DNA of 57,534 nucleotides from Bdellovibrionales bacterium (GTDB lineage Bacteria > Bdellovibrionota > Bdellovibrionia > Bdellovibrionales > UBA1609): contig JAKUPT010000012.1 in the NCBI GenBank assembly GCA_022450595.1, positions 1 to 57,534 of the forward strand, given 5' to 3'. Positions within the stretch are counted from its first letter, which is position 1, and each line of letters begins with the position of its first letter. Below the pieces are notes generated by a model that was given only the letters and a program-made list of their open reading frames with translations, ran no database searches and was not told where the DNA came from. Positions 1,432-12,697 of the stretch are shown here, piece after piece. A program made the translations under genes and the position numbers.

Positions 1432-3828
1432 ATGAAAAAAATCATCGCCCTTATAATTATACTCATCATTTTAATCATTAGTTTTTTACTAGTGATTTTT
1501 AAACCTTTTGAAACTAATTATATGAAAAAAAACGCTGGCGACATTATTCCCGTAAAAGATGAGTTCACCACTAAAATCAAACCCATATTTGATTCAAAGT
1601 GTGTCGCCTGTCACTCTTGTTACAATTCTCCTTGTCAGTTAAATTTGACTTCCTATGAAGGACTTATTCGCGGGGCTCACAAAACAGACATTTATGACTT
1701 TTCAAAACTCAAACCCAGAAAACCCACAAGACTTTACATCGATGCCCACTCTAAAGCGCAGTGGCAAGAGCTTGGATTTTACCCTGTGGTTGAACAAAAA
1801 ACAGAGTCTTCGCTTTTAAGTTATTACATTTCAAAAATTCCTGGTATTGAATCTAAAAAACAAGAAAGCTACAATTCTGAAGAGCAAAGATTCTGCATGA
1901 ATGATATTAATCCTATTCAGGAGCAAGGCTTAAAGCTGACCAATTCGGCAGCAAGAATGCCCTATGGCTTCCCTGCGCTGAATGAAAAAGAGATTTCTAC
2001 AATTAACACTTGGATTAAAAAAGGTGCTCCTGGGCCAAGTCTTCAAAAAATGGAAAGCTCTATTTTAAATCATCCAGAGCTTGCGCCAAAAATTAATAAA
2101 TTAGAAACACTTTTTAATCAAAAAACTCTAAAAGCACAAATTGCTAGCCGCTATTTGTATGAACACTTGTTTTTAGCCCATATATATTTTCAGTCAGCTC
2201 CAAATGTGTTTTTTAGATTGGTGCGCTCAAAAACTCCGACCAATAAGATTGAAGAGATTGGCACTACTTATCCTTTTGACGATCCCCAACAAAAGTTTTA
2301 TTACCGCTTGCGTCCGGTCACCAACACCATAACCCATAAAAGCCATATTCCCTTTATGGTGTCCACTGACAAGCTCAAGCGATGGAAGCAAGAATTCTAC
2401 AACACGCCATGGGACAACGTGCCTGAAACAATGCCAGCCTATGACGCTAAGGGCTCCAACCCTTTTGAAACATTTAAAAGCATACCGACAAAAACTCGTT
2501 ACAGATTTTTTCTTGAAAATACGCACTACCACATTATGACTTTTATCAAAGGCCCTGTGTGCCGAGGGCAAACGGCTTTAAATGTTATTAACGATCACTT
2601 TTGGGTGTTTTTTATTGATCCGGAAAAAGACGCTCTTTCTAACTCACCTGAACTTTACCAGAAAGTGGCCAAAGACATGCAAATGCCCGCAGCCCTTGAT
2701 GGCAACTTTGACCCCTTTATTGATTTTAGAAAAAAGTATTGGAATGCCATTGAGCTAAAATTTAAATCTTTAGAAAAACAAAATGATCCCATCAATAAAG
2801 ACTGGTTTTGGTACGGAGATCAACAAGACACCAATGCTTTACTCACGGTTTACCGACACTTTGACAGTGCTATGGTTTTTAAAGGCCTTAGAGGGAAAAT
2901 GCCAAAGACTATTTGGCTTTTGGACTACCATGTATTTGAGTCCATTTATTATAACCTAACTGCCGGCTATAATGTATTTGGCCCCTTACTGCACCAACTT
3001 CAATCTCGTCTTTATATGGAAATTTCAAGAATTGCCTCTGAAGATCTATTTATAAGTCTTTTGCCTAAAGAAAAAAGAGCCCAAGTTCGTACAGAGTGGA
3101 ACACTCCTGTGCCAGATAAAAACTCGACTCTACTGAAGCGACTGTCGGATCTTGTCAGTGAAAACGTTAAACAAAAGATGCAGTTTGATTACCCCTATCA
3201 AGGGGAAAACCTCTCCACTGCATTTAATTTCAGCCAACAAGACTTCAAAACCCAGTGGTTTAATTCCGTGGTGTTAAAAAATTACTCCATAGAACAAATT
3301 AACTCTGAAAATGATATTTCCCCACAGACAAAAGCTTCAAAAGAAGAGTTTAACTCTTTAGGGGTCAAATCTGGCCTTCATTTAAAACACCACAGGTTGC
3401 TGTCACCTTTGGTGGCACTGCCCTCATCCGTGATACAACACCTTCCAGACACACTTCTGCTTCGAAACACCGACACCCAAGAGGCATACACGTTGATTCA
3501 CAACAAATCCCATTACAATGTGTCGATGTTGTTTTTTGAAAATGACCGAAGACAACCCGACAAAGACGACTTAGATATTTTGCCAGGTGTTGCCACCTCT
3601 TATGCCAACCTTTACTTGGTGCTCAATGATAAATCGATAATGCAGCTGGCTCAAAAACTTAAAAATGCGAAAAACAAACCCGAGGTGAACTCCATTCTCA
3701 AAGAATACGCGCTTTTACGAACAAGTAAAAACTTTTGGAAACACCATCGCTGGTTTTCAGAGCAAAGCTCTAGAGCTGAAACCAATGAGTCGGGCTGGCT
3801 CGACCTCAATCGCTATTTAAATTTTTAA
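1432..3828 (+). CDS. cti: Fatty acid cis/trans isomerase (haem-c type)
   Basis: Periplasmic enzyme that converts cis-unsaturated fatty acids of membrane lipids to trans, a fast response to solvent or heat that stiffens the membrane; known from Pseudomonas and Vibrio. The 798-residue protein has an N-terminal hydrophobic export/anchor segment (residues ~3-24), then a haem-c motif CVACH at residues 57-61 inside CVACHSCYNSPCQLNL, the family signature. Further conserved stretches are RPTRLYIDAH-like (PRKPTRLYIDAH), RMPYGFPAL and the WYGDQQDTNALLTVYRH region. The length fits the family. The start is supported by AAGGA seven bases upstream of the ATG. It is monocistronic, and its stop overlaps the convergent AbiEii stop by 4 bp. 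Confident by motif and full-length similarity; action on self versus prey lipids is unknown. Confidence 0.9.
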   Translation: MKKIIALIIILIILIISFLLVIFKPFETNYMKKNAGDIIPVKDEFTTKIKPIFDSKCVACHSCYNSPCQLNLTSYEGLIRGAHKTDIYDFSKLKPRKPTRLYIDAHSKAQWQELGFYPVVEQKTESSLLSYYISKIPGIESKKQESYNSEEQRFCMNDINPIQEQGLKLTNSAARMPYGFPALNEKEISTINTWIKKGAPGPSLQKMESSILNHPELAPKINKLETLFNQKTLKAQIASRYLYEHLFLAHIYFQSAPNVFFRLVRSKTPTNKIEEIGTTYPFDDPQQKFYYRLRPVTNTITHKSHIPFMVSTDKLKRWKQEFYNTPWDNVPETMPAYDAKGSNPFETFKSIPTKTRYRFFLENTHYHIMTFIKGPVCRGQTALNVINDHFWVFFIDPEKDALSNSPELYQKVAKDMQMPAALDGNFDPFIDFRKKYWNAIELKFKSLEKQNDPINKDWFWYGDQQDTNALLTVYRHFDSAMVFKGLRGKMPKTIWLLDYHVFESIYYNLTAGYNVFGPLLHQLQSRLYMEISRIASEDLFISLLPKEKRAQVRTEWNTPVPDKNSTLLKRLSDLVSENVKQKMQFDYPYQGENLSTAFNFSQQDFKTQWFNSVVLKNYSIEQINSENDISPQTKASKEEFNSLGVKSGLHLKHHRLLSPLVALPSSVIQHLPDTLLLRNTDTQEAYTLIHNKSHYNVSMLFFENDRRQPDKDDLDILPGVATSYANLYLVLNDKSIMQLAQKLKNAKNKPEVNSILKEYALLRTSKNFWKHHRWFSEQSSRAETNESGWLDLNRYLNF

Positions 3829-4691
3829 AATAAGTGTGAACATATATTTAAAAAATACTTTTGATTCCATAAGGTTAAGGACTGTTGCTCTCTAGATTTT
3901 AAAAATGGAGCCACGTCTTTTTTAGCATCATCGAAGTTAACCGTTTTAAATTTTTCAGTTAATAATTTTTTTAACTCTTTTTTAGTAAAATTTTTGTCTG
4001 AAGGCCAATCGCCACTTTGAACTAAGCGACTTTTTAAATGCTCAAGATTGGGTTGAACTTTTTGACCTATATACCAGATTAAATCATAATAATCTCTACC
4101 CTTAACTCTAGTTTTCCATTTACGTGCAAGTATTGCATGCAACTTTCCAGCAAACAAACAGTCCAATGTCATGGTTTTTACTTGAAAGGGAATTGGTCTT
4201 AAAAGGTTTTTCATTTCTGTTTTAAAATTCATAGGAGGATCTGTGTCTACTTCAATTTTTATCTTTAAAATTTCATTTGATAGTGTGTGTTGCACAATTG
4301 AATCTGGAGCTTTTATTTTAATAAATTGAATTTTTGTATCACTTTTTACAAAGGCACTTTCAATTTGAGACTTCATTTTTTTCTTTTTTTTCTCCACATT
4401 AACTTCAAAACCAAATGCTAATAGCTCTTCTTCAATGGCTTTTAAGTGTGGACTCAAATCAAATTTTGAATCTGGCTTGATAAGAGTAAAGTCCATGTCC
4501 TCTGAAAAACGATTCAGTCCATAAAGGATTCTTAACGAGGTTCCTCCATAAAAAGCCGCGTATTCATAAAACTTGGACCGCCACAAACCAAGTAGTGACA
4601 CCTCTTGAATAATTTCTTTTAAAGCATTGCTATAATCAAACTTGGTTTTACAATCGTACTCTGAGAGCATATCAGTTATAGCTTTATCCAT
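3825..4691 (-). CDS. AbiEii/AbiGii-family nucleotidyltransferase toxin
   Basis: Toxin half of a type IV (AbiE) toxin-antitoxin/abortive-infection pair. These proteins are DNA polymerase beta-like nucleotidyltransferases; characterised relatives modify tRNA or bind GTP and arrest growth. Visible family motifs: YGGTSLRILYGLNRFSEDMDF (nucleotide-binding GGTS and the SxDxD metal site), and downstream AGKLHAILARK followed by GRDYYDL, the conserved Lys and Asp motifs III/IV. I start it at the ATG at 4691, which has GAGGAG seven bases upstream, rather than the in-frame TTG at 4706. It then overlaps the end of the AbiEi gene by 8 bp (ATGGATAA), so the two are translationally coupled. 288 residues, normal for the family. 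It converges on cti with overlapping stops. Confidence 0.88.
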   Translation of the reverse strand: MDKAITDMLSEYDCKTKFDYSNALKEIIQEVSLLGLWRSKFYEYAAFYGGTSLRILYGLNRFSEDMDFTLIKPDSKFDLSPHLKAIEEELLAFGFEVNVEKKKKKMKSQIESAFVKSDTKIQFIKIKAPDSIVQHTLSNEILKIKIEVDTDPPMNFKTEMKNLLRPIPFQVKTMTLDCLFAGKLHAILARKWKTRVKGRDYYDLIWYIGQKVQPNLEHLKSRLVQSGDWPSDKNFTKKELKKLLTEKFKTVNFDDAKKDVAPFLKSREQQSLTLWNQKYFLNICSHLF

Positions 4692-5331
4692 TTTGTTGCT
4701 CCTCAATTTTTGATTCCATATAAATTAAAAATTCTAGACACAATGGATGATTATAATGTTGCACTAGGCTTCTTAATGAGCTTAGTTTTATTTGTTTTAT
4801 AAGTTCTGATTCATCTATCCGCAGATCCTCTAAAACATCGATAAATCGCGCCTTTGTTTTTTTACTCAAACTCAATGTCATATAATCTATTAATGCTTTT
4901 TCAGGGCTTGCCATAAAAATATGGTCGCCATCGGCTTGTTTTTCCAATAACACCGCAAGTTTATATCTATCTTTATTTAAATACCTGTAGGTATAAACCC
5001 CTACAGGCGTATTAAATTCTTTATTTTTTTTACTTGTAACGGACTGGATTGTTTCTACTCTTTCAGGAATTAAACCCCAATAAGAAAGTGCTGTTTCAAA
5101 AGATATATAAGATGGACCATAAATAAGGTTAGCTAACAATAGCGGGTTATAGCTTTTGGTTTCATCTGGTTGAATAACATATAAACCTTTTTTTATTCTT
5201 ACTATTTGTTTCGACTTTAAAAGTTCATTAATTTTTTGCAGTGGCGCCTTATAATTCTCTAAAGCCACCAGTAAACTTTGGTAGCTAAACTCCTCACGGC
5301 CAATTGATTTTCTAAGACTGTGTTTATCCAT
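4684..5331 (-). CDS. AbiEi-family antitoxin / transcriptional repressor
   Basis: First gene of the AbiE pair: a 215-residue antitoxin that in known systems has an N-terminal winged-helix domain binding inverted repeats in its own promoter and a C-terminal domain needed to counter the toxin without stable contact. Here residues ~10-55 look like the winged helix (INELLKSKQIVRIKKGLYVI), followed by the AbiEi core (GPSYISFETALSYWGLIPE and a SPEKALIDY motif). It is followed with 8-bp overlap by the AbiEii toxin. Two near-identical palindromes lie immediately upstream of its ATG, which strongly suggests autorepression. The start has a modest GGATGG ribosome site that itself lies at the edge of the first palindrome. 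Confidence 0.87.
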   Translation of the reverse strand: MDKHSLRKSIGREEFSYQSLLVALENYKAPLQKINELLKSKQIVRIKKGLYVIQPDETKSYNPLLLANLIYGPSYISFETALSYWGLIPERVETIQSVTSKKNKEFNTPVGVYTYRYLNKDRYKLAVLLEKQADGDHIFMASPEKALIDYMTLSLSKKTKARFIDVLEDLRIDESELIKQIKLSSLRSLVQHYNHPLCLEFLIYMESKIEEQQNG

Positions 5332-5336
5332 TTTCC

Positions 5337-5371
5337 ATCCAGTATATTAGATTATTTCTAATATACTGGAT
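5337..5371 (-). promoter_or_regulatory. AbiEi operator palindrome 1
   Basis: Perfect 15-bp inverted repeat (ATCCAGTATATTAGA and its complement) with a 5-bp AT spacer, beginning 6 bp upstream of the AbiEi start codon. It nearly duplicates the palindrome centred 52 bp further upstream. Position and pairing fit the two-operator autoregulation known for AbiEi antitoxins; binding is inferred. Confidence 0.75.
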
Positions 5372-5389
5372 GTTTTTATCTTAAACAAG

Positions 5390-5422
5390 TCCAGTACATT
5401 AGAAATAATCTAATGTACTGGA
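5390..5422 (-). promoter_or_regulatory. AbiEi operator palindrome 2
   Basis: Perfect 14-bp inverted repeat (TCCAGTACATTAGA and its complement) with a 5-bp spacer AATAA. The arms differ from palindrome 1 by a single T/C change. Centre-to-centre distance is 52 bp, about five helical turns, so both sites would face the same side of the DNA. Confidence 0.75.
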
Positions 5423-5509: not shown

Positions 5510-5618
5510 GCCTGGTCGGGTCCTATACAATGAGGGCTCTTGCGAACTCCGCCAGGTCCGGAAGGAAGCAACGGTAGCTTGAGTGTCATGTGATATAGGG
5601 TGCCCGGCCACTTTTTTT
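5510..5618 (+). ncRNA. ffs: Signal recognition particle RNA, small bacterial type (4.5S)
   Basis: RNA scaffold of the signal recognition particle that binds Ffh and targets membrane proteins. The hallmark apical sequence GCCAGGTCCGGAAGGAAGCA lies at 5551-5570. The distal stem pairs GGTCGGG (5514-5520) with CCCGGCC (5603-5609), continuing through TCCTATA/TATAGGG. A T-run at 5612-5618 follows directly as terminator. Length of about 100 nt fits the Alu-less type. It lies ~90 bp upstream of dnaX in the order SRP RNA-dnaX-ybaB-recR, also seen in Bacillus. Exact 5' end is estimated from the pairing. Confidence 0.93.
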
Positions 5619-5706: not shown

Positions 5707-7713
5707 ATGTCCTATCAGGTGATAGCTCGAAAATGGAGACCTAAAGGCTTTGAGGAGCTGGTTGGGCAGGGCCATATTAGCCAAACGCTATTAAATGCCC
5801 TTCAAAACAACCGCCTGCCTCACGCCCTGCTATTCACCGGCCCAAGAGGAACAGGAAAAACCTCCTCGGCTCGAATTTTAGCCAAATCCCTTCGCTGCCC
5901 CAATGCCAAAAACTTTGTGCCCTGCCTTGAGTGCAACGAGTGTTTAGACATTTCCAGTGGCCGCAGTGTGAATGTGATTGAAATTGATGGAGCCTCAAAC
6001 AACGGGGTGGAAGCCATTAGAGAGCTTAGAGACAGCGTGGGCTACATGCCGGCCTCTGGGCACTACAAGGTTTATATTATAGATGAAGTGCATATGCTCT
6101 CCACCAGTGCCTTCAACGCTTTGTTAAAGACCCTTGAGGAGCCTCCAGAGCATGTGGTGTTTATTATGGCCACAACTGAGGTGCATAAAATACCCAACAC
6201 GATTTTGTCTCGTTGCCAGCGCTTTGATTTTAGAAGGATTCCTTTAAAACTGATCACCGAAAGACTGCAAAGTATCTGTAAAGCCGAAGGCCTTAAAGTT
6301 GACGATGAAGCCCTATGGGCTGTGGCCCGTCAAGGTGATGGCTCCATGAGGGACTCCCAAAGCCTTCTGGATCAAGTGATCACTTTTAGTAAAGACCACC
6401 TAACTTTAAAAAAAGTGACTGAAGTTTTAGGACTCACTGAGCGCAGTTTGATTTTAGAGGCCATGCAGTCCATCTGCCATAAAAAGTCAGACCTAGCTTT
6501 AGATGTTGTCGAAAAAGTCTTTAGCTCTGGTACTGACGCCCAACTGTTTGCCAAAGACTTACTGGAAGAAATTCGTCACATGATGTTTGCCAAAATGGCG
6601 CCATCTCCTGAAGAAGCGGCAAAGCTATTAGACTTACCGGATTTTGAAATTGAAGAGCTTCGAGGGCTGGCTCAAAACATGAGTGCTGAAGATATACATA
6701 TGCTTTTTGATATGTGCCTTAAAGGCGTTCAAGATCTCAGCCGCAGTCAAGACAGCCAAATCATTTTAGAAATGATGCTAATCAGACTCTCCCAGGCCCC
6801 AAAAATTGAAGAGCTCAAAACTTTGCTCGGCCAGAGTGAAAAAAAAAAGCCTAAATTAAACACGGATTCACAGAGAAGCTCTACAAACTCACAAACAAGT
6901 TCATCTGCATCTGAGATAAAAACACCCCAAAAACAACAAGTATCAGCACAATCAAAGGCCTCTGAACAGGCAAACTCTTCACAAAGCATTTCTCAGACTC
7001 AAGAAAAGCCTCAACATCAACAAGCCGGTTCTGCTCAAAATGTTTCTCAGGAACCAACAAAACCTCAAGGCCAAGGCTCTTCAAAAGACAGCCCTAGCAC
7101 ACAAGCTGACAACAAAAATCAAATCAATACAGCTAACACTCAACCTGAAGAAAAATCTCAAAATTTTAGCCAAAACCCTCAGAGTTTTTCACAGGAAGAG
7201 CCCCCTCCGCCTCCAACTGAAGAACCAAAACAAAGCCTTAACGTGTTGAAATCTAAGAAAAAACCAAAAACTAAGTTCAAAAAACTAAAAACTCCCCTAG
7301 AAACCAAACAGCCCCTTGAGGAGCACTGGTATGAGGTGGTGTCTGAGGTCAAAAAGTATCAACAAATTTTAGGCGCAGAGCTTGAAAATGTGTTTTTAGA
7401 CTCTTGCAGCCAAACTGAGGTGACCCTTTCCATCCCCGCTAAGGCCAAATTTTTATGGGACCGTTTTAACGACCCTGAGTACCAAAAACGTATAAATAAG
7501 GTGTTTAAAACTTTCTGGGGGATGGAATTTGAAATTAAGGTGGTTCAGGACAAAGACAAAAAAAGTTCTGAACTGACTCCAAAAGCCATGCATCGAAAAA
7601 AAATAGATGCTAAAAATCAAGAGACAAGAAAGCTTGTGGAAGATCACCCGATGGTCAAACAAGCGCATAAATTGTTTAAAACAGAAATTAAATCAATCAA
7701 GGAGCTACCATGA
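5707..7713 (+). CDS. dnaX: DNA polymerase III subunits gamma and tau
   Basis: ATPase core of the clamp loader that opens and loads the beta clamp; tau also joins polymerase cores and helicase. 668 residues. Walker A GPRGTGKTS at 45-53, zinc-binding cysteines C64, C73, C76, C79, Walker B IIDEVH at 124-129, and the SRC sensor near 168-170. Domain III ends near residue 370. A long Q/S/P-rich low-complexity linker follows (~380-520), then a C-terminal tau domain (~535-660). An A10 run at 6839-6848 sits exactly at the domain III/linker junction (see separate entry). The ATG has an AGGGAG ribosome site. The stop overlaps ybaB by 4 bp (ATGA), indicating an operon with ybaB, recR and mglA. Confidence 0.97.
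   Translation: MSYQVIARKWRPKGFEELVGQGHISQTLLNALQNNRLPHALLFTGPRGTGKTSSARILAKSLRCPNAKNFVPCLECNECLDISSGRSVNVIEIDGASNNGVEAIRELRDSVGYMPASGHYKVYIIDEVHMLSTSAFNALLKTLEEPPEHVVFIMATTEVHKIPNTILSRCQRFDFRRIPLKLITERLQSICKAEGLKVDDEALWAVARQGDGSMRDSQSLLDQVITFSKDHLTLKKVTEVLGLTERSLILEAMQSICHKKSDLALDVVEKVFSSGTDAQLFAKDLLEEIRHMMFAKMAPSPEEAAKLLDLPDFEIEELRGLAQNMSAEDIHMLFDMCLKGVQDLSRSQDSQIILEMMLIRLSQAPKIEELKTLLGQSEKKKPKLNTDSQRSSTNSQTSSSASEIKTPQKQQVSAQSKASEQANSSQSISQTQEKPQHQQAGSAQNVSQEPTKPQGQGSSKDSPSTQADNKNQINTANTQPEEKSQNFSQNPQSFSQEEPPPPPTEEPKQSLNVLKSKKKPKTKFKKLKTPLETKQPLEEHWYEVVSEVKKYQQILGAELENVFLDSCSQTEVTLSIPAKAKFLWDRFNDPEYQKRINKVFKTFWGMEFEIKVVQDKDKKSSELTPKAMHRKKIDAKNQETRKLVEDHPMVKQAHKLFKTEIKSIKELP
6839..6854 (+). 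other. Predicted dnaX slippery site producing a gamma-like short form
   Basis: Ten A residues followed by G read in frame as GAA AAA AAA AAG, containing the A AAA AAG heptamer used for -1 frameshifting in E. coli dnaX. A -1 shift (or one extra A in the mRNA) leads to GCC then TAA at 6852-6854. Loss of one A also meets a stop, TAA at 6857-6859. The -1 product would be ~382 residues, ending right after the clamp-loader ATPase/domain III, as in gamma subunits. I see no clear stimulatory stem-loop downstream. Inference from sequence and the E. coli/Thermus precedents. Confidence 0.6.
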
Positions 7714-9607: not shown

Positions 9608-9623
9608 ATGCAGTATAGTGCAT
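9608..9623 (+). promoter_or_regulatory. Operator-like near-palindrome upstream of HTH-Fic
   Basis: ATGCAGTATAGTGCAT, a near-perfect palindrome and one mismatch pair away from the perfect one at 9640-9655. Centres are 32 bp apart, about three helical turns. Likely a binding site for the downstream HTH protein. Confidence 0.6.
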
Positions 9624-9639
9624 TTTATTTTGATTTATT

Positions 9640-9655
9640 ATGCATTATAATGCAT
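9640..9655 (+). promoter_or_regulatory. Perfect palindromic operator overlapping a -10 box
   Basis: ATGCATTATAATGCAT is a perfect 16-bp palindrome containing TATAAT (9646-9651), a consensus -10 element 13 bp before the ATG at 9665. A repressor bound here would block the promoter. The short distance implies a leaderless or nearly leaderless mRNA. Confidence 0.62.
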
Positions 9656-9664
9656 AATGAATAT

Positions 9665-10138
9665 ATGAAAACATCAAAAAGCAAAGCTCTAGCTCAAAAA
9701 AGTATCATTGATCAAAAGCTTAAGGGCTGGATGAAACTAAAAGAAGATATGGCACCCCCATCAGGATGGATTAAAGCCATTCGTGGAGCCCTAGGCTTGT
9801 CCACAGGACAGTTAGCTAAAATAGTAGGAGTTAACCAAACCACAGTTTTAAAGTCTGAGGAAAGAGAAGCCCTTGGCAACATTACTTTATCTAAACTGAA
9901 TGAGTTAGCTCAAGCTATGGATTGTAAGCTGATTTATGCAGTTGTACCTAACAACGATCATAACAGCCTTGATGATATATTAAACTTAAGAGCTGAGATG
10001 TTGGCTGATCAAATGCTTAGCGATGTTGAACACAGCATGAGCTTGGAAAAACAAGACGTTTCATTTAACAAAGATAAGAGAGATAGACTTATTAAAGAGT
10101 TAAAAGAAAACTTAGATAAAAGGCTCTGGGAGGTTTAA
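9665..10138 (+). CDS. HTH antitoxin-like regulator, 'mobile mystery protein A' family
   Basis: 157-residue Xre-type helix-turn-helix protein of the family named mobile mystery protein A, found with a Fic partner on plasmids and mobile regions. Signature MAPPSGWIKAIRGALGLSTG lies just before the HTH (LAKIVGVNQTTVLKSEERE, about residues 48-70), then ITLSKLNELAQAMDCKLIYAVVP, a pattern typical of the family. Probable repressor and antitoxin of the Fic protein 3 bp downstream. I start it at 9665, not at the longer ATG at 9608, because the extra stretch is occupied by two palindromic operators and a TATAAT box. No clear Shine-Dalgarno is visible, fitting a leaderless message. Family call confident; antitoxin role inferred. 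Confidence 0.85.
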   Translation: MKTSKSKALAQKSIIDQKLKGWMKLKEDMAPPSGWIKAIRGALGLSTGQLAKIVGVNQTTVLKSEEREALGNITLSKLNELAQAMDCKLIYAVVPNNDHNSLDDILNLRAEMLADQMLSDVEHSMSLEKQDVSFNKDKRDRLIKELKENLDKRLWEV

Positions 10139-10141
10139 ACC

Positions 10142-10735
10142 ATGAAATTTAACCTTCCAACTGGCGCTACTTCTCTTGATCCTAATGAAATAAAAGATTT
10201 AATTCCTACCTATATAAATAAACAAGATGAGCTTAACCAACTTGAAAGTAGTAATATACTAGAGGCCGTTCAATGGGCTTATTCTAAAAGAAGTATTAAT
10301 CCATTAGACTACTCTTTTATATTAGAACTTCATAAAAGAATGTTTAAAGATGTTTGGAAGTGGGCTGGGAAACCAAGAACCACTGAAAAAAATATTGGAG
10401 TACACTGGCAACAAATAAGTTCTCAAGTTTTTCAATTGATTAAAAATATAGAATATTGGATTGATAATGAAGTTTATAATTTTGATGAAGTCGCTGTTCG
10501 ATTTCACCATGGGTTAGTTAAAATTCATATATTTCCTAATGGAAATGGACGCCACGCCAGACTGATAACAAATTTATTACTAAGATTTAATGATAAAGAT
10601 GAATTTAGTTGGGGGCGAAACAGCTCATCAGATTCAATTGATTTTGATAGTACTATAAGAAAAAAATATATTAGTTCTCTTAAAAACGCCGACAATAACA
10701 ATTTTAAAGATTTGCTGTCATTTGTGCGAAGTTAA
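10142..10735 (+). CDS. Fic/DOC-family protein, 'mobile mystery protein B'
   Basis: 197-residue Fic-domain protein; such enzymes usually transfer AMP or another nucleotide group to a target hydroxyl. Fic core motif HIFPNGNGRHAR at residues 129-140 keeps the catalytic His and the GNGR anion-binding loop, but has Ile where Pro is usual after His. N-terminal SNILEA (S37-x3-E41) resembles the inhibitory (S/T)xxxE(G/N) helix of self-inhibited Fic proteins, with Ala in place of Gly/Asn. N-terminus MKFNLPTGATSLDPNE and the TTEKNIGVHWQQI region match mobile mystery protein B. The ribosome site GGGAGG lies before the ATG, 3 bp after the HTH gene, so the two form one operon. Likely toxin of the pair; target unknown. 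Confidence 0.87.
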   Translation: MKFNLPTGATSLDPNEIKDLIPTYINKQDELNQLESSNILEAVQWAYSKRSINPLDYSFILELHKRMFKDVWKWAGKPRTTEKNIGVHWQQISSQVFQLIKNIEYWIDNEVYNFDEVAVRFHHGLVKIHIFPNGNGRHARLITNLLLRFNDKDEFSWGRNSSSDSIDFDSTIRKKYISSLKNADNNNFKDLLSFVRS

Positions 10736-12499: not shown

Positions 12500-12592
12500 T
12501 GCTTTAAGAAAAAATTTAAACTTTATGTTTTCCTAATAATCATTAGTTTATTAAAAACTCACTAAAGCACTCAACTAATTAGACCCTATATT

Positions 12593-12624
12593 AAAAAAGC
12601 AACCCATATGCAGGTTGCTTTTTT
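12593..12624. terminator. Bidirectional terminator after the PPTase gene
   Basis: AAAAAAGCAACC pairs perfectly with GGTTGCTTTTTT around an 8-base loop (CATATGCA). A and T runs on both sides let it work on either strand, serving the PPTase gene (+) and the convergent gene ending at 12698 (-). Confidence 0.92.
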
Positions 12625-12697
12625 AAATCTAAGAACAATGAATTAAAGATATTATTTTTTGTTTCTGAGTGAACCAAAAAACAAAGACAAGAGTGTG

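Follow-up and report, generated by a model that had tools for sequence, protein, structure and literature searches.

The window analysed here, a 57,534-nucleotide stretch of a contig from a Bdellovibrionales bacterium, carries an AbiE-type toxin–antitoxin locus on its reverse strand (Table 1). It contains a gene for a COG5340-type AbiEi antitoxin with a winged helix-turn-helix (wHTH) and an adjacent gene for an AbiEii/DUF1814 nucleotidyltransferase-like toxin, the two components that characterize type IV AbiE systems. The two reading frames overlap, with an in-frame ATG of abiEii at 4691 that overlaps the end of abiEi, and the antitoxin gene comes first, a layout that corresponds, by gene order alone, to a bicistronic operon. 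The small SRP RNA and dnaX genes on the other side of the intergenic region are core genes, and ~90 bp separate the SRP RNA from the predicted distal operator, described below, on its upstream side.

The AbiEi protein matched no Pfam family at E <= 0.01, and a sequence profile built from it recovered no PDB chain at E <= 1. Its AlphaFold2 model (mean pLDDT 95.9) is most similar, among solved structures, to Streptococcus agalactiae AbiEi (6Y8Q; Z 12.9, 188 aligned residues, rmsd 5.3) and also matches Mycobacterium tuberculosis Rv2827c (1ZEL; Z 10.2, 197 aligned residues, rmsd 3.9). The order of its secondary-structure elements agrees with the published description of AbiEi, in which the third helix of the wHTH domain is described as the recognition helix (PMC3985639). 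In the model, this helix (H3) spans residues 30-39.

Table 1. Genes and predicted regulatory features at the abiE locus and in its surroundings (window coordinates).
Feature	Coordinates	Strand	Remarks
abiEi, antitoxin/repressor	4684..5331	-	215 aa; winged HTH and C-terminal antitoxin domain; PADLOC AbiEi E 3.5e-55
abiEii, nucleotidyltransferase-like toxin	3825..4706	-	Pfam PF08843 AbiEii E 8.1e-32; PADLOC AbiEii E 1.4e-108
Codons of the predicted recognition helix H3 (residues 30-39)	5215..5244	-	Covariation with operator offsets -8, -6 and -5
Candidate abiE promoter	5360..5388	-	TTGTTT (5388-5383), 17 bp, TATATT (5365-5360); read by eye
Proximal palindromic operator (predicted)	5336..5372	.	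33-bp core 5338-5370, centre 5354
Distal palindromic operator (predicted)	5390..5422	.	33-bp core 5390-5422, centre 5406
Small SRP RNA	5514..5612	+	Divergent neighbour, outside the system; Rfam RF00169, 67.8 bits
dnaX	5707-7713		Divergent from the abiE operon
Fatty acid cis/trans isomerase gene	1432-3828		Convergent to abiEi-abiEii; Pfam CTI E 4.5e-185

The region upstream of abiEi contains two perfect palindromes with spacers of 5 bp, one with 16-bp arms (palindrome 1, 5336-5351 and 5357-5372) and one with 14-bp arms (palindrome 2, 5390-5403 and 5409-5422). Their centres are 52 bp apart, and the start of abiEi lies 23 bp downstream of the proximal and 75 bp downstream of the distal one, placing inverted repeats at positions -23 and -75, in the promoter region as in the autoregulated operators of S. 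agalactiae AbiEi and Rv2827c, although the candidate promoter is itself a weak match. Compared directly, the two 33-bp cores are identical at 26 of 33 positions; after reverse-complementing one of them, 31 of 33 positions agree and the mismatches are confined to offsets -9 and +9. Palindrome 2 is an inverted copy of palindrome 1 with one substitution per arm. The first-pass annotation of this DNA, which had pointed out two near-identical perfect palindromes upstream of the AbiE pair, is thus confirmed in its essentials, including the 5-bp spacers and the distance between the centres. Its single-base difference between the arms holds as one substitution in each arm, and of the arm lengths that it gave, 15 and 14 bp, the second is correct and the first is 16 bp on remeasuring. 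The opposite strand sense of the spacers (TTATT and AATAA) is real but probably trivial, because in an alignment of 76 operators the central positions (offsets -2 to +1) are A or T in at least 93% of cases.

Palindrome 1 has the longest arms of all perfect palindromes with loops of 0-10 nucleotides in the window, and palindrome 2 ties for the next-longest with a palindrome at 12591-12626 (14-bp arms, loop of 8). By chance, 57.5 kb would be expected to contain ~0.005 palindromes with arms of at least 14 bp and 0.0003 with arms of at least 16 bp. A search for the two-site pattern, allowing up to three mismatches, returned 2 occurrences in the window and none in 100 shuffled versions. At the same tolerance, no further copy of the full site was detected elsewhere in the genome (3.06 Mb, 156 contigs, 97% complete), and exact half-sites are confined to this locus. 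Occurrence at many unrelated genes, which the first-pass annotation had named as evidence against its proposal, was therefore not observed. Two inverted copies side by side do look like a repeat unit, and the palindromes might accordingly be taken for a repeat, the relic of a mobile element or a chance arrangement. Given the lack of any other genomic copy, the low chance expectation and the presence of the same geometry upstream of homologues in many phyla (see below), this explanation is vanishingly improbable.

The -10 element of the candidate promoter falls within the proximal operator, in its upstream arm, and the -35 element lies between the two operators. Its position (TTGTTT-17-TATATT) is tentative because it matches 8 of 12 consensus bases and thus falls below the threshold of our promoter scan, which at 9 of 12 consensus bases returned no promoter on the reverse strand.

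To place these elements in context, we examined the upstream regions of AbiEi homologues for dyads of 33 bp in which no fewer than 11 of 14 pairs match. The homologues came from the genomes of the phylum, in which 67 of 368 genomes had an AbiEi homologue at E <= 1e-10, from GTDB species genomes, where a profile scan contributed 80 loci out of 568 relatives among the matches listed, and from viral contigs (8 loci); first-pass scans of genome-contig and viral-contig collections with the single protein had returned no relatives, and 25 plasmid records were left out of the analysis. Among the 77 loci of the first batch, two had no start (L053, L055) and two had too short an upstream region (L022, L079), and one of the 88 loci of the second batch had no start (L127). 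The training set comprised 144 of 162 loci (at least 100 bp of upstream sequence, <90% identity). For the hold-out set, 98 of 132 listed places were used, 58 of them given as loci and a further 40 chosen by hand; one (L204) was lost, and 85 of the 97 loci were non-redundant and <90% identical to the training set. The hold-out loci stem from two phyla that the training set also covers, and five predictions were fixed in writing before they were retrieved.

A dyad was present upstream of 86 of the 144 training homologues, compared with 50 of 2880 dinucleotide shuffles (1.7%) and none of 144 coding stretches. The hold-out set gave a similar picture, with dyads at 53 of 85 loci versus 43 of 1700 shuffles (2.5%) and 1 of 85 coding stretches. 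These counts refer to locus sets that include weak AbiEi paralogues, and they contain a few unrelated-looking cases, such as a terminator-like (L168) and a G+C-rich dyad (L206). The best dyad is most frequently centred at -22 to -24 from the start codon. Its geometry is common to homologues from many phyla, and on this shared framework the half-sites vary by group, with CCAGTATGTTAC, CATAGTATGTCGA, CCAATATATAGA, ATAACTATGA and CAGAATTCCCAT among the variants. No dyad reached the threshold at 58 of 144 training and 32 of 85 hold-out loci (~40%), and only one of the eight viral-contig homologues (L166) has a family-like dyad. The presence of an adjacent abiEii gene does not separate the two groups (130 of 135 loci with and 79 of 87 without a dyad). 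Since the S. agalactiae study (PMC3985639) notes, with reference to a supplementary figure, that other abiE loci are preceded by similar repeats, part of this conservation may already have been published.

The bases of the operators covary with residues of the predicted recognition helix. When the mutual information of each protein column with each half-site offset was computed for 60 homologues with <55% identity (training and hold-out pooled), 5 of 2814 residue-base pairs exceeded the 95% family-wise level of a null distribution obtained from 300 permutations of operators among proteins, with the representatives treated as independent: residue 35 with offset -6, 31 with -8, 32 with -5, 32 with -6 and 36 with -5. 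All five lie within H3. In the training set alone (84 of the 87 loci with a dyad), the top three pairs were 35 with -6, 32 with -5 and 31 with -8; S154 with -4 ranked fourth, some other C-terminal pairs also ranked high, and 17 of the top 40 pairs fell into residues 1-56, which hold 54 of the 202 columns. Shared ancestry is only partly controlled in this analysis, and C-terminal columns of the same ancestry fail the null. One candidate of this kind, a code in the C-terminal domain (residues 102-104) for the outer CCAG/CATAG block, looked suggestive and was discarded when it did not pass the family-wise null. A comparison of sister pairs gave a mixed result, backing residues 31 and 32 (31 with -8 ranked 14th and 32 with -5 ranked 11th of 2565 pairs) but not residue 35 (35 with -6 ranked just 368th, with some pairs from the C-terminal domain above it).

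Several of these associations reappeared, in both operator arms, in the hold-out set. Asn or His at position 35 went along with T at -6 in 5 of 6 loci, as opposed to 1 of 47 others, and in the form originally predicted, T or G at -6, in 5 of 6 versus 2 of 47. Asp32 was associated with C/G at -5 (25 of 32 versus 6 of 21) and Val32 with A at -5 (4 of 6 versus 1 of 47). By contrast, Ser or Thr at position 35 did not discriminate for C (25 of 28 versus 18 of 25, p = 0.16). Arg31, which in the training set is accompanied by G at -8 in both arms at 44 of 53 loci, showed this base at 32 of 45 hold-out loci (versus 1 of 8 without Arg31). As a universal rule, the link between Arg31 and G at -8 had to be abandoned, since it fails in the hold-out subfamily with an xKNG wing (1 of 12); outside this subfamily, in a split made post hoc, it holds for 31 of 33 loci versus 0 of 4. 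The window AbiEi has Leu31, Gln32 and Asn35, and its operator has A, T and A at offsets -8, -6 and -5, respectively. One exception in the hold-out set, L229, has two dyads of different type, at -107 and -44 upstream of its abiEi gene. The one at -107 resembles the operators of the xKNG-wing subfamily, and the one at -44 fits the recognition helix of its own AbiEi, a post hoc observation that was left uncounted.

These data also bear on two other ways of reading the palindromes. They could act at the RNA level, as terminator hairpins or leader structures; both were indeed flagged as terminator-like (2 found versus 0.4 expected). However, their stems contain just 5 G-C pairs out of 14-16, specific bases are conserved beyond what pairing demands (T at offset -7 in 95% of the 76 aligned operators), and operator bases vary in step with the DNA-reading helix of the AbiEi encoded next to them, so that a role as hairpins appears very improbable. 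The same low probability attaches to the idea that a different regulator binds the palindromes, with abiEi merely being one of the genes it controls. Sequence as such cannot name the binder, and we found no direct point in favour of this idea, whereas the restriction of the full site to this one locus in the genome and the correspondence between operator type and AbiEi's own recognition helix speak against it. Chance, a repeat element, a hairpin or terminator and a foreign regulator were thus all rejected, on grounds of uniqueness, base conservation, covariation with H3 and chance expectation. With strong support from dyad conservation, genomic uniqueness and H3 covariation for the earlier suggestion of two AbiEi operators, we consider it very probable that the palindromes are an operator pair through which AbiEi represses its own operon, with H3 reading the arms and the second operator contributing to control.

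Second operators were sought by using each locus's own operator as a template (p <= 0.01 against 200 shuffles), a threshold at which ~1-2 false second copies are expected among 140 loci. They were detected at 36 of 87 training and 19 of 53 hold-out loci, 55 of 140 in total. The centre-to-centre distance was 51-53 bp at 28 of these 55 loci (16 training, 12 hold-out) and in 11 of 26 representatives with <55% identity. Since this spacing recurs with quite different operator sequences, the 52-bp pair is a recurrent module, and the spacing of about five helical turns highlighted by the first-pass annotation is not peculiar to the window. In the gaps of 31 two-operator loci with spacings of 51-54 bp, there was no clear -10 element (TANNNT in 19 of 31 versus 66% in shuffles); TGNTANNNT occurred in 5 of these 31 gaps, compared with 3.4% in shuffles, and TTGAC was present upstream at 15 of 57 one-operator loci, compared with 2.5% in shuffles.

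Communication between the two sites has less support. Over all 55 distances, the helical phase at 10.5 bp gave an R of 0.52 (training 0.61, hold-out 0.38). For the 22 distances outside 50-57 bp, however, R falls to 0.15, and helical phasing beyond the 52-bp mode is unsupported. The five turns on one DNA face proposed for the window, with cooperativity or looping, describe this mode and are not an established rule. Predicted empty gaps at 46-50, 57-59 and 66-71 bp were likewise contradicted by spacings of 46, 46, 47 and 48 bp, and a 79-bp spacing fell outside the predicted classes. AbiEi may bind both palindromes independently, with 52 bp simply being the distance at which operators fit around RNA polymerase, without contact or looping. 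This reading is a serious one, to which we would give somewhat less than an even chance. It agrees with the occurrence of other spacings (44-48, 54-56, 60-65 and 72-79 bp) without a common phase, with the 57 loci whose proximal dyad lacks a second copy at p <= 0.05 and with the negative cooperativity reported for the two repeat pairs of Rv2827c (PMC7319586), but the recurrence of 51-53 bp, close to five helical turns, among distant representatives with unrelated operator sequences speaks against it. Cooperativity or looping between the two sites is plausible.

AbiEi autoregulation itself is already known, in Streptococcus and Mycobacterium, with both S. agalactiae AbiEi and Rv2827c reported to be autorepressors (PMC3985639, PMC7319586). 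The window locus resembles that of S. agalactiae in that an AbiEi with a wHTH and an antitoxin domain is encoded upstream of AbiEii in a bicistronic arrangement, with inverted repeats in the promoter. The S. agalactiae promoter, however, contains a single wide pair of perfect 11-bp arms with N27 between them (23-bp arms with a 3-bp gap; PMC3985639), a geometry that is not found in the window, where the arms are 5 bp apart and two dyads are present; measured from the centre, the arms span offsets 3-18 here and 14-24 in S. agalactiae. The S. agalactiae protein is a monomer in solution (PMC3985639) and binds with positive cooperativity (PMC7319586). Given that H3 covaries with bases 5-8 bp from the dyad centre, the half-sites lie much closer together than in S. 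agalactiae, which in turn suggests that AbiEi subunits sit next to each other on each dyad.

The closest analogue of the two operators is found in M. tuberculosis, where two sets of inverted repeats precede the antitoxin gene Rv2827c: its promoter has four 23-bp repeats, with gaps of 13 bp within and 4 bp between pairs (PMC7319586), from which we calculate a pair-to-pair distance of 63 bp, as compared with near-identical sites at 52 bp in the window. Another relative, Rv1044, failed to bind the DNA upstream of its own gene (PMC7319586), a point against the autoregulatory reading of the window. By description, leaving sequence and geometry aside, the arrangement is also like that of the Streptococcus suis element ICESsuHN105, whose abiE promoter contains two palindromes, IR1 and IR2, each bound by AbiEi alone and both needed for repression (PMC11062541). 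The S. suis protein additionally binds oriT, whereas the genome studied here has no further full site within three mismatches. The main texts of reports on the AbiE system of Serratia (PMC7725324) and on AbiEi of Mesorhizobium (PMC8436566) do not contain the term 'inverted repeat' or, in the latter case, 'palindrom'. Codes for the LacI (PMC2978694), GntR (PMC4494728) and IclR (PMC8222616) families have been derived from the way in which recognition residues covary with bases of the operator, and the present associations resemble them; the literature searched yielded no such code for AbiEi. The compact dyad, the recurrent 52-bp pair and a recognition code, as inferred here by comparative means, would be the new elements.

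Combining these observations, each 33-bp dyad would be occupied by AbiEi subunits, probably with one on either arm, so that a dyad takes up two and a promoter as many as four. Residues 31, 32, 35 and 36 of H3 may read the inner part of the arm, at offsets -8, -6 and -5, with the outer CCAG block possibly contacted by a different surface of the protein. Occupancy of the operators would mask the promoter and the start region and thereby repress abiEi-abiEii, keeping antitoxin and toxin at low and balanced levels. The second operator, 52 bp upstream, could strengthen or sharpen repression, conceivably through direct contact between the two AbiEi-operator complexes. The anatomy of the sites, their conservation and uniqueness in the genome, the covariation of H3 with operator bases and the recurrence of the 52-bp pair are computed results, whereas AbiEi binding and its stoichiometry, repression in this organism, the promoter position and any cooperativity are points that we infer.

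Few AbiE promoters are characterized in the literature consulted, and they differ in layout and cooperativity (PMC3985639, PMC7319586, PMC11062541). If our reading is correct, a single compact operator architecture of 33 bp is common to the AbiEi proteins of this large branch in many phyla, and residues 31, 32 and 35/36 of H3 read offsets -8, -5 and -6, respectively, by a code that can evolve. Such an evolvable code would let operator and antitoxin diverge together, so that several AbiE systems could reside in one genome without cross-repression. The ~52-bp pair would then be a recurrent module for cooperative repression by four subunits, in contrast to S. agalactiae with its one wide pair. 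Taken as a whole, this combination of a shared architecture, an evolvable H3 code, insulation and a cooperative 52-bp module falls only just short of an even chance. Consistent with insulation, the operators differ within each of the six inspected genomes in which two AbiE loci both have a plausible dyad (G858, G857, G809, G344, G327 and G108). A further genome, G368 (that of locus L086), encodes six AbiEi homologues at E <= 1e-10 and represents a natural test case for operator insulation. A family-wide operator and a residue-to-base code make self-recognition and the lack of cross-talk testable, and in genome annotation the dyad can serve as a signature of AbiE promoters. As far as the window is concerned, the picture is the one a specialist would expect, an autoregulated toxin–antitoxin operon of ordinary function that has unusually clean operators.

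Another palindrome in the window, a perfect one of 22 bp without a spacer (ATTATGCATTATAATGCATAAT, 9637-9658), overlaps the start region of a gene for a Cro/C1-type HTH protein (ORF 9608-10138), for which an in-frame ATG at 9665 is the likelier start. This gene is followed by a Fic/DOC gene (10142-10735), and the two form a second toxin–antitoxin-like pair, possibly autoregulated, 4 kb away from the abiE operon.
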